This document shows, one piece after another, positions 27,058 through 61,939 of a stretch of 64,000 nt of DNA; within the stretch, counting starts at the first letter, position 1; every line of letters starts with the position of its first letter. The translations under genes and the position numbers were made by a program. This DNA comes from Pontiella desulfatans (GTDB lineage: Bacteria > Verrucomicrobiota > Kiritimatiellia > Kiritimatiellales > Pontiellaceae): contig NZ_CAAHFG010000001.1 of assembly GCF_900890425.1 (NCBI RefSeq), forward strand, positions 3,224,001-3,288,000, in the 5' to 3' direction. Below the pieces are notes generated by a model that saw only the letters and a list, made by a program, of their open reading frames with translations, was not told where the DNA came from and made no database searches.

Positions 27058-27124
27058 AAACAGAATAATTAGGACAGAATGATTCCATGCGAATGGAAAT
27101 TATTCTGTCCTAATTATTCTGTTT
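27058..27124. repeat. Composite palindrome, CAGAATAATT-unit family
   Basis: Perfect 23-bp inverted arms (27058-27080 and 27102-27124). Each arm carries two CAGAATnATT units 14 bases apart. The loop holds a second hairpin, TTCCAT-GCGA-ATGGAA (27083-27098). It lies between the SufT-like gene and mrp. Confidence 0.92.
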
Positions 27125-28013: not shown

Positions 28014-28039
28014 CTACCCTTCCTTTCCAAACGGATTTA

Positions 28040-28120
28040 TTAACCGCAAAAGAACGCAAGGAACGCAAAATAAACTGTTCCCGGAAATCCTTTGTGTTCT
28101 CTGCGTTCCTTCGCGGTTAA
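28040..28120. repeat. Composite palindrome, AACGCAAGG-unit family
   Basis: The left arm (28040-28070) starts TTAACCGCAAAAG and repeats GAACGCAA. The right arm (28091-28120) is its imperfect complement ending TTCGCGGTTAA. The spacer is about 20 bases. Located between sufS and sufU. Confidence 0.85.
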
Positions 28121-28137
28121 TCTACTCTTCCCATTGT

Positions 28138-45674: not shown

Positions 45675-46113
45675 GATAAACCTCCCTGATAGTTTATAAA
45701 TGTTGCTTCCAGAATCACCCCAGACCCCGGAGGTTATGTTGTCCGCATGGTCTCCCGGCCAGCGGAGCAACGTTTTCAACATACACCGACAAAACAGCAT
45801 GTCAATAAGTTCATGATTTATTTTGTGTTTTAGTATTTTTTACTAGCTCATCGCAATATTTCACAAATTTTTACGCACTATTAACAACCACATACGGATG
45901 CGAAATCGGAATCTTATTCTAAAAAGCACTTTTTTTTCGACGGGATGGAAATCAACGGGTGATTAGCCACAAGAGAACGCATAGATCACAAAACCAGGGC
46001 TCGGTTTTTTACAGGACTATTTGTGGCAGGACTATTTTCCGCTCGGCGGCGGGCAGGTGGAAATTGGAGCAAGCAACCGCGCTCGGGCGGCAAACCACGA
46101 AATACACCAAATA

Positions 46114-46369
46114 CACGAAAAACCTGAGCGTAGCGTGGATATCCGATCCGCGTTTTTCCAGGCAACAGGAACTCGTATCGGATATACGAGCTACGGCTCT
46201 CATTCCCCTTTGTCACTGGAGAGCCAGCAACCGCCCCTTTCCCGCCCGGACGAAAAGCAACTGCGAATGAACGGCAAACCTCGAAATACACGAAAAACCT
46301 GAGCGTAGCGCGGATATCCGATCCGCGTTTTTCGGGCAACAGGAACTCGTATCGGATATACGAGCTACG
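46114..46369. repeat. Two 80-base direct repeats
   Basis: Copies at 46114-46195 and about 46289-46369 differ at only a few positions. Each starts with CACGAAAAACCTGAGCGTAG and contains GGATATCCGATCCGCG and CGTATCGGATATACG, the latter a near-palindrome. A 90-base unrelated spacer separates them. Confidence 0.85.
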
Positions 46370-46888
46370 CCCTCCACCGAAGAGATAGCAACCGTAAATT
46401 GACGCCAATGAACGCGAATTATCACTGCGCATGTTTTTTATGACAGGATGATTTTATTCGACCGCTAAGACGCGAGGAAACAAAGATCTCCCGTCCGCAT
46501 GGGATATTTCCACCTAAAAAAATCGTCCGCGCCGCAAATCGTCTTGTCATTAATCGTCCTGTAAAAAATCGGCATCCTCATAGGGTTCTCATTTGCGGAA
46601 AAAAGGGACAAAAAAGGGGGGCGGGCGTGCTTCTAAGAGACGAAGCGAAGATGAGGAAGCCAATATGGAACATTGGAATGACCGAAGGGAATGACAACCA
46701 CCACTACAGCAGTGCGGAACATGTAGTGGCCGGTTCCTAGAACCGCCCATCGATCCTGTCCATCCGGTGATTAGGGTAGAAACATTTTTAGGCAGAAAGA
46801 TGCGGTGCTGGGAATAGGGTCGCTCGGCGGGGCAGCAAGCGGTACATCGGCGGTGCGGGGGCATTTCCCGGCGGGGAATGGTTGGTGC

Positions 46889-58950: not shown

Positions 58951-59003
58951 GTAGTTCCGCCTTTAGGCGGTCATTCCGCAGAGCCGCCTAAAGGCGGAAC
59001 TAC
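58951..59003. repeat. Perfect 20-bp inverted repeat
   Basis: The arms 58951-58970 and 58984-59003 are exact complements with a 13-base loop. Each arm also contains its own palindrome CCGCCTTTAGGCGG. Located between the V-ATPase terminator and the stop codon of the convergent rubredoxin-like gene, where it may act as a two-way terminator. REP-like. Confidence 0.9.
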
Positions 59004-59430: not shown

Positions 59431-59508
59431 GGAGTGCGCGGGCTGGACCGCGCTTTCAAACACCGGTGCCAAGCCTTTTAAAAGCGCGGTCCAGCCCGCG
59501 CGTACTCC
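59431..59508. repeat. 26-bp inverted repeat, GGAGTGCG family
   Basis: The left arm 59431-59456 and right arm 59481-59508 are complementary except for a two-base insertion in the right arm. Each arm starts or ends with GGAGT and a CGCTTT run. It can form a long hairpin between the rubredoxin-like and Nif3-like genes. Confidence 0.9.
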
Positions 59509-59732: not shown

Positions 59733-59772
59733 AAAAGATTGCGCCTCTGATACGGATATGCATAATGCCTAC

Positions 59773-60555
59773 ATGAATCTTTCAACCATCACACAAACAC
59801 TCAACGAGATCGCCCCGCTGAATCTTGCGGAGGAGTGGGACAATGTGGGCTTGCTGATCAATCCGCTGAAGCCGCGGAACGTGAAGAAGGTGCTGCTGAC
59901 GATCGACCTGACCGAGGCGGTGGCGGACGAAGCCATTGCCGGCAAAACCGACCTGATCGTGGCCTACCACCCGATCCTGTTCCGTCCGGCCAATCGGCTG
60001 AATGCTGAAAATGCCTACGACCGCACCGTGATGAAGCTGATCCAGAAAAACATGGCGGTCTATTCCCCGCACACGGCCCTCGATGCGGTGATTGGCGGCG
60101 TGAACGACTGGCTGGCCGATGGCGTGGGTGATGGCGAGGTTTCCGTTCTCCAACCGATTCCCGGATCCGATGCCGGCCAAGGACGGCTCGTCGAACTAAG
60201 AAAGGCTGTGAAGGTGAAAACGCTTGCCGGTCGCATCAAGCAACATCTGGGGCTGAAAAGCCTGCGGATCGCCGCTCCGGCGGAAGGCGCATCCATTAGC
60301 ACCATCGCGCTGTGCGCAGGAGCGGGAACTGACGCGTTCAAGGGCATCCAGGCCGACTGCTACCTGACCGGCGAAATGAGCCACCACAACGTGCTGACGG
60401 CCACGCTGGGCGGTTCGCACGTCATTCTTTGCGAACATACCAACACCGAACGCGGCTATCTGCCCTCATTCGCAAAGATTCTCAGAAAAGCCCTAGGAGC
60501 GGGTGTTGAAATCGTGATTTCCAGCAAGGATGCCGACCCGATTCAGATGGGTTGA
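59773..60555 (+). CDS. Nif3-like dinuclear metal centre protein
   Basis: 260 residues from the ATG at 59773 (MNLSTITQTLNEIAPLNLAEEWDNVGLLI); an ATG at 59758 adds five residues. The family metal ligands are seen in VAYHPILFRP, SPHTALDAV and CEHTNTERGYLP, with GEMSHHNVLTA between. These proteins form hexamers with two metals per subunit and are linked to GTP cyclohydrolase I type 2 or NIF3 families. Their role is not settled. No operon partner is evident. Confidence 0.88.
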   Translation: MNLSTITQTLNEIAPLNLAEEWDNVGLLINPLKPRNVKKVLLTIDLTEAVADEAIAGKTDLIVAYHPILFRPANRLNAENAYDRTVMKLIQKNMAVYSPHTALDAVIGGVNDWLADGVGDGEVSVLQPIPGSDAGQGRLVELRKAVKVKTLAGRIKQHLGLKSLRIAAPAEGASISTIALCAGAGTDAFKGIQADCYLTGEMSHHNVLTATLGGSHVILCEHTNTERGYLPSFAKILRKALGAGVEIVISSKDADPIQMG

Positions 60556-60558
60556 TTT

Positions 60559-60761
60559 ACAGGACTATTGATAACAGGACTATTTCCTTTTTAAGCGGAA
60601 AAAATGGTTCTCCGTATATTGTTATGGTGGGTTGTGCGACTTTGCAGCGAATGGAACCATGAAGACTGTTGGCAAAATTCCAGATGAGCGGCTACCGGGA
60701 TCTCCTTCACTACGAAATTCTACGGGCACCGAAAAAATAGTCCTGTTATCAATAGTCCTGT
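60559..60761. mobile_element. MITE-like element with perfect 27-bp terminal inverted repeats
   Basis: The left terminus (60559-60585) and right terminus (60735-60761) are exact complements over 27 bases. Each is made of two CAGGACTATT units about 15 bases apart. The 149-base interior has no credible gene. No clear target duplication was seen. A related, shorter palindrome lies at 61879-61939, on the other side of purM. Confidence 0.75.
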
Positions 60762-60821
60762 TGCATTTCGCCCGCCGGAACGGTTTAATCCCGCACATAT
60801 TTTCAGAAAGGGATTTACTCT

Positions 60822-61856
60822 ATGGCTAAAAAGAAAAAATCAGCCTACGCCGAAGCGGGCGTGGATATCGATGTAATGATGAATTCGCTCAAGCGGATCG
60901 GCAAAAAGGTTAAGGCCACCAATACCTCGGGCGTGGTTAGCGAAATCGGCTCGTTCGGCGGGTTGTTCAAGTCGCCGGGCAAGGAAAGCCTGCTGGTCAG
61001 CAGCGTGGACGGCGTCGGCACCAAGCTGAAGGTGGCCAACATGGCCAACAAGCACACCACGGTCGGGCAGGATCTGGTGAACCACTGCGTGAACGATATC
61101 CTCGTCCAGGGTGCGGAACCCCTCTTCTTCCTCGACTATCTCGGGGCTGCGGCACTGGATCCCAAAGTGTTCGAAGACGTGGTCGGCGGCTTCTGCAAGG
61201 CCTGCAAGGAAAACGGCATGGCCCTGCTTGGCGGCGAAACCGCCGAAATGCCCGGCCTCTACCCGAACGGCGAATACGACCTCGTCGGAACCGTCGTCGG
61301 AACCGTTGAGCGCAAGAAGCTCATCACCGGCAAGAAGATCAAAAAAGGCGATGTCCTGATCGGCCTGCCCTCCACCGGCCTGCAGACCAACGGCTATTCC
61401 CTCGCCCGCAAGGTGATCTTTGAAACCGCCGGGAAGAAACTCTCCGATCTGGTTCCGGGCACCAAGGTTACCTTTGAGAAAGCCCTGCTGGCCATCCACA
61501 AGAGCTACCTGCACCCGGTCAAAGCCGTCATGAAGAAGGTCGACATCCACGGCATGGCGCACATCACCGGCGGCGGGCTCTACGACAACGTGCCGCGCGT
61601 ACTGCCCGAAAACGTCGATGCGCAGTTCGACCGCTCCACCTGGAAGACTCCGGCCATCTACGAATTCATCGAAGAACAAGGAAAGGTCGACCACGAAGAA
61701 ATGTACCGCGTCTTCAACATGGGCATCGGCTATGTGCTGATGGTTGGCAAGAAGGACGTCGAACAGACCTTGAAGATCCTGAAGGCGAACAAGCAACGCG
61801 CCATCATCGTCGGCGAAGTGGTTGCGGGCTCCGGCAAATCGGTCTTGATTAATTAA
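60822..61856 (+). CDS. purM: Phosphoribosylformylglycinamidine cyclo-ligase (AIR synthetase)
   Basis: A 344-residue PurM that closes the imidazole ring in purine synthesis with ATP. Motifs: AYAEAGVDIDVMMNSLKRI, LLVSSVDGVGTKLKVA, VGQDLVNHCVNDILVQGAEPLFFLDYLG, ALLGGETAEMPGLY, GLPSTGLQTNGYSLARKV and HITGGGLYDNVPRVLP. AAAGGG lies 10 bases upstream of the ATG. It stands alone, flanked by repeat elements on both sides, with a terminator downstream. Confidence 0.96.
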   Translation: MAKKKKSAYAEAGVDIDVMMNSLKRIGKKVKATNTSGVVSEIGSFGGLFKSPGKESLLVSSVDGVGTKLKVANMANKHTTVGQDLVNHCVNDILVQGAEPLFFLDYLGAAALDPKVFEDVVGGFCKACKENGMALLGGETAEMPGLYPNGEYDLVGTVVGTVERKKLITGKKIKKGDVLIGLPSTGLQTNGYSLARKVIFETAGKKLSDLVPGTKVTFEKALLAIHKSYLHPVKAVMKKVDIHGMAHITGGGLYDNVPRVLPENVDAQFDRSTWKTPAIYEFIEEQGKVDHEEMYRVFNMGIGYVLMVGKKDVEQTLKILKANKQRAIIVGEVVAGSGKSVLIN

Positions 61857-61878
61857 GAACCTTCCAGGCTGTTAGAAA

Positions 61879-61939
61879 ACAGGACTATTGATGACAGGAC
61901 TATTTTGCTCCTGAATAGTCCTGTTATAAATTGTCCTGT
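61879..61939. repeat. Composite palindrome, CAGGACTATT-unit family
   Basis: The left arm (61879-61905) has two CAGGACTATT units. The right arm (61914-61939) is the complement, with one unit changed to CAGGACAATT. The loop is about eight bases. It is the same family as the element at 60559-60761 but lacks the interior. Confidence 0.88.

Follow-up and report, generated by a model that had tools for sequence, protein, structure and literature searches.

The 64,000-nt window of the Pontiella desulfatans genome that we analysed contains a gene-less element of 203 bp (60559–60761), located between a gene of the NIF3 family (59758–60555, forward strand, 265 aa), named from its sequence, and a gene of 344 aa (60822–61856, forward strand) that the initial annotation had named purM. 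The two ends of the element, 60559–60585 on the forward and 60735–60761 on the reverse strand, are reverse complements at 27 of 27 positions, confirming the perfect 27-bp, two-word ends first noticed by inspection. Each end consists of two CAGGAC(N)ATT words (CAGGACTATT) with a 15-bp spacing, at 60560–60569 and 60575–60584 in the left arm and, inverted, at 60736–60745 and 60751–60760 in the right arm. Consistent with the earlier claim that the interior (60586–60734) carries no gene, no open reading frame (ORF) of at least 100 aa was found within 60559–60761. Upstream of the NIF3-family gene there are also two GC-rich inverted repeats (59436–59501 and 58951–59003) that have no word structure.

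Allowing at most one mismatch, CAGGACTATT was found 13 times in the window, compared with an expectation of 1.56, and none of 100 shuffled sequences reached this count. These words define what we call the CAGG family, which has three members in the window: the 203-bp element itself, a 61-bp hairpin beyond purM (61879–61939), previously noted as a shorter relative, and a 552-bp member (46011–46562) with no convincing gene. The arms of the latter (left, 46011–46036; right, 46537–46562) hold double words at 46012–46036 and 46537–46561. The initial annotation had rightly pointed to related sequence near 46016 but had described it as partial, whereas it is the left arm of a complete element. With family copies on both sides, purM sits in a composite-like arrangement (60559–61939), which creates a strong flanking inverted repeat. 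Globally, a search of the 8.66-Mb genome for the double word, using a 10+5+10 pattern with at most three mismatches, returned 60 matches, as compared to a single one for the reversed-pattern control. Most of these copies were closed hairpins of ∼60–95 bp. The element is therefore far from unique, and its earlier description as a MITE-like mobile element holds: it is dispersed through the genome and has both long and short forms. Among congeners, only three others had the double word at no more than one mismatch. We also observed recurring 48-bp GC-rich inverted repeats (TGGAGGGGCGGACGC...GCGCCCCTCCA) whose partners lie hundreds of bases apart (L030, L032, L049 and L054); the composite repeats that house these pairs also contain single CAGG double words.

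One copy with the same ends bears a gene. At C3:554605–555489, CAGG-family arms 885 bp apart enclose an ORF of 276 aa, which encodes a GxxExxY protein of the long type (TIGR04256, PF13366 PDDEXK_3). The coordinates of this double GxxExxY protein are C3:554702–555496. Since a relative of this protein (L072) matches PF13366 twice, the long type looks like a pair of PD-(D/E)XK domains, the second of which seems degenerate. Residues E30, D68, K80 and Q92 were invariant among 30 homologues, as would be expected for an active nuclease. The initial annotation had suggested searching for a transposase gene with the same ends. Our genome-wide search for the ends revealed no classical transposase; the enclosed gene is instead that of the GxxExxY PD-(D/E)XK nuclease, the sole gene recognised between paired CAGG-family arms, with some intervals between distant words lacking annotation.

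This layout extends well beyond the CAGG family. We examined all of the genome's own PF13366 and PF05635 genes, and most were flanked by inverted tandem words, each gene having its own word. We then added relatives within the phylum as well as named plasmids from other phyla. Of the sampled genomes of the phylum, 210 of 388 had GxxExxY relatives and 100 of 145 had PF05635 genes. Using one scoring for every class (inverted-repeat score ≥11), we found inverted word arrays flanking 31 of 33 double GxxExxY, 48 of 59 single GxxExxY and 30 of 37 four-helix-bundle (S23/IVP) genes from the sampled genomes, a set in which related sequences are not independent. Taken together, 79 of 92 GxxExxY genes lay between inverted tandem-word arms, and the genes without clear arms were two of the 33 double ones and 11 of the 59 single ones. 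The corresponding counts for control ORFs, some of which adjoin real elements, were 13 of 200 in the same genome and 5 of 33 in other genomes. The dominant word period, as estimated by autocorrelation of these short arms, was 13–18 bp for 30 of 31 double GxxExxY genes and 7–8 bp for 27 of 30 four-helix-bundle genes; for single GxxExxY genes (n = 48), it was 8–11 bp in 30 cases and about twice as long, 17–20 bp, in 11. Two further hairpins in the window are also built from words: one (27058–27124) has ACAGAATNATT-type words that follow the grammar of the double-GxxExxY class with a different word, and the other (28039–28121) has words with a 9-bp period (ACCGCAAAAGAACGCAAGGAACGCAAA) that match the arms of a single-GxxExxY element (L070).

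Outside the phylum, examples of the layout were found in Bacteroidota, Gemmatimonadota and Cyanobacteriota, as exemplified by a perfect 32-bp arm in Gemmatirosa, the arm word TTCACCACAGAGGACGCAGAGGACACGGAG in Bacteroides finegoldii, inverted TAGGGAG heptamers around a four-helix-bundle gene in Nostoc edaphicum and GGGTGTA heptamers in Calothrix. Arms were marginal (score 11) in Treponema, Sphingomonas and Fusobacteria, and no clear arms were detected in Persicobacter, Prevotella and Pseudanabaena PCC 7367. Searches for single GxxExxY in phage records and for double GxxExxY in plasmid records returned no match. Cyanobacterial STRRs are heptamer repeats as well, and here heptamer arrays were found inverted around cyanobacterial four-helix-bundle genes; on cyanobacterial plasmids (L374–L378 and L381), STRR-like heptamer arrays are inverted around S23/four-helix-bundle genes. 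Several individual loci deviate in their details. In two double-GxxExxY elements (L109 and L115), the words within the arms point the opposite way. Two copies of a four-helix-bundle gene (L082–L088; G000:C1:918840–919442 and 926128–926730) are both broken after about residue 50, their halves lying ∼280 bp apart. On a Sphingomonas parapaucimobilis plasmid (L199), a GxxExxY gene lies between fabD and fabG, again within a conserved operon.

Gene-less hairpins could be tied to the gene-bearing forms. An unbiased census of 1.2 Mb of the genome identified 81 inverted repeats with a score of at least 16, of which 40% had tandem-word arms, compared with 2.5% of random segments. Within this census (15% of the genome) and the window, the arms of 7 of 15 gene-bearing elements were matched (score ≥14) by those of a gene-less hairpin in the same genome, as compared to 5% for foreign arms (Mann–Whitney p = 0.02). 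One intermediate form was found in the trpG gap of congener G013, where a 119-bp insert has single-GxxExxY arms with the final codons of the gene still between them. This insert is a deletion derivative of a single-GxxExxY element.

Comparison of orthologous sites revealed extensive turnover. When we joined the flanks of 13 elements and looked for them in 20 congeners, many matches crossed the joint uninterrupted, so that the empty sites anticipated by the initial annotation do exist in relatives. Eight congeners (G003, G004, G005, G007, G018, G021, G023 and G024) had no word hairpin between purM and the NIF3-family gene. In G012 this gap contained an array of TAACTGA/TAACCGA-like heptamers, and nonamer hairpins occupied it in G016 and G027. 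A nonamer remnant was present in G001, whereas G008 had a heptamer hairpin and G014 a degenerate insert. In the nadC–coaX, trpG and valS gaps, unrelated word elements likewise replaced one another among congeners, and the CAGG copies in the gap before scpA were shared with G002 and G021. For the CAGG family, the junctions in congeners could not be fixed at base level because the intergenic DNA is too diverged. Two pairs of sites within the genome are informative. The first is an empty and filled pair resolved to near base level, GCAGCAG-AAAAA-TTGCACG versus GCAGCAG-AAAAAA-[TGACAGAAC...TTCTGTCA]-AAAAAA-TTGCACG; the sister-family insertion has an A-tract of ∼5–6 bases on each side. In the second, the interior of the 203-bp element, which is intact in the window, has a partial repeat at C1:837k that is split by a hairpin of GCAACGAATG words. 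CAGG copies have TTTYA / TRAAA in common immediately outside the words, and no clear target duplication was seen for copies of this family. These data provide good support for the unit being mobile.

We therefore consider that the 203-bp element is probably the non-autonomous derivative of a small DNA element, and that the nuclease encoded by the latter would move the unit. The complete form would comprise two CAGGACNATT words, the gene for a double-domain GxxExxY PD-(D/E)XK nuclease and two CAGGACNATT words in inverted orientation. Its arms would act as DNA words that are direct repeats inside an end and inverted across ends, as at many transposon ends. The nuclease may bind its own paired words at both ends (putative target DNA, ACAGGACTATTGATAACAGGACTATT) and cut, and the unit, either pasted or as a copy, would then enter AT-rich intergenic DNA, with gene-less copies presumably moving in trans on the nuclease. 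Among 30 double-GxxExxY elements, arm similarity correlated with protein similarity (Mantel r = 0.50, p = 1e-4), which would be expected from joint travel or shared descent and also from mutual recognition. The CAGG family belongs to a much larger class as one of its families. Taking all layouts into account, we think it likely that this is a phylum-spanning class of mobile elements in which short words, arrayed in inverted orientation, enclose one small gene (single or double GxxExxY, or an S23/IVP four-helix bundle), the word spacing depends on the protein class, and large numbers of gene-less hairpins are mobilised in trans.

The role of the protein as the driver of mobility is our inference. 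The units could be mobile with the GxxExxY or four-helix-bundle protein as cargo or as an accessory that binds the arms, being moved by host replication or repair, a reverse transcriptase or another hairpin-acting enzyme. Indeed, two unrelated folds share one layout, and the presence of a four-helix-bundle sister class in the same arrangement means that the protein may be an arm binder only. The four-helix-bundle (S23/IVP) family has no known enzyme activity, and it is mainly for this reason that we retain an accessory role as an unlikely but serious alternative. A study of rRNA intervening sequences further suggests that the RNA matters more than S23p (PMC4990558). Against a mere accessory, the nuclease residues are conserved, and the arm words follow protein class and lineage.

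Far less probable is that a host RAYT (a Y1 HUH transposase) moves the hairpins as REPINs. Both systems combine dispersed short palindromes, here of a similar size range, with a one-gene partner encoded by the same genome, and the genome does contain 19 Y1_Tnp matches. However, no CAGGACTATT word lies within 1.5 kb of any of them, and we found no Y1 HUH gene flanked by CAGG-family palindromes. Several Y1_Tnp matches have different palindromes of their own, whereas CAGGACTATT-type words surround GxxExxY genes. The partner also differs in being a PD-(D/E)XK or four-helix-bundle protein encoded inside the palindrome, and the end anatomy is another one. Some Y1 (RAYT-like) genes lie near their own palindromes, for example GGGGTCAGTCCTCGG-like ones (L236, L238, L239 and L242), and represent a separate REP system.

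It is equally improbable that the hairpins are RNA structures kept by selection, such as terminators or processing and regulatory hairpins, rather than mobile DNA. Their intergenic positions and strong predicted folds (single-strand fold z of −5.8 for 60559–60761 and −8.7 for the short relative at 61879–61939) would fit such a function, and TAACTGA heptamers have been proposed to be regulatory (PMC4679880). The arms themselves argue otherwise. Across 15 copies, arm identity was 87.5% within elements and 87.6% between elements (permutation p = 0.62), variation being found mainly at word position 7 and in the spacer. There was no arm covariation, and compensatory changes did not exceed chance. 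Arms paired in one element resemble each other no more closely than arms taken from different elements, a pattern that favours a protein that would read DNA words over base pairing maintained by selection. The same gap is also empty or filled with unrelated words in congeners, and no Rfam match was found. These numbers also contradict the earlier proposal that perfect ends imply a recent origin or active correction; both arms of the 203-bp element are simply at consensus.

It also seems very doubtful that the elements are MITEs derived from a conventional DDE insertion sequence that shares their ends. They do resemble MITEs in being short, gene-less and present in many copies with inverted ends, and in sharing these ends with a complete element (C3:554605–555489), albeit one with GxxExxY in place of a transposase; like MITEs, they may be internal-deletion derivatives moved in trans. 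They differ in that no parent insertion sequence or transposon with a known transposase was found: GxxExxY, and no insertion sequence, was recognised between paired arms, although not every interval between distant words is annotated. A reading of the double words as integron attC sites was dropped upon inspection, as the words repeat directly inside each arm instead of forming inverted boxes.

PD-(D/E)XK-fold nucleases such as TnsA, Rpn and some homing endonucleases take part in transposition or recombination, which shows that this fold is used in mobile DNA. GxxExxY would differ from them in being the only protein of its element. Another parallel is offered by the 23S rRNA intervening sequences, for example of Coxiella, in which an inverted-repeat stem surrounds one small ORF and ORF-less forms are known (PMC4990558). 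Their ORF family, PF05635, is that of the gene in the sister class described here. By contrast, the elements we examined sit between protein genes and not in rRNA, their arms are tandem-word arrays, and the CAGG family carries the GxxExxY nuclease. A second parallel is provided by the TAACTGA repeats of Beggiatoaceae and cyanobacteria, described as direct repeats that are possibly regulatory or located on mobile elements and whose binding protein is unknown (PMC4679880). These are likewise intergenic heptamer arrays, and in one congener the purM gap is occupied by TAACTGA/TAACCGA-like ones; the text consulted does not connect the described repeats with a gene enclosed by inverted arrays.

Apparently, this kind of element has not been described so far. 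In the open-access literature, with preprints and subscription papers lying outside the search, we found no earlier description linking GxxExxY or PF05635 genes to palindromes, and there is almost no literature of this kind on these two common families. Of 5.39 million open-access papers, two mention GxxExxY. If our interpretation is true, it would provide a role for GxxExxY, add a one-gene PD-(D/E)XK type of transposon and identify many of the heptamer and nonamer repeats in intergenic regions as mobile DNA. The S23-bearing rRNA intervening sequences, whose origin has been described as unclear (PMC4990558), would be rRNA-resident relatives of these elements, and their origin would become testable. 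Because the elements turn over within conserved operons, anyone annotating genomes or studying regulons constantly encounters them.
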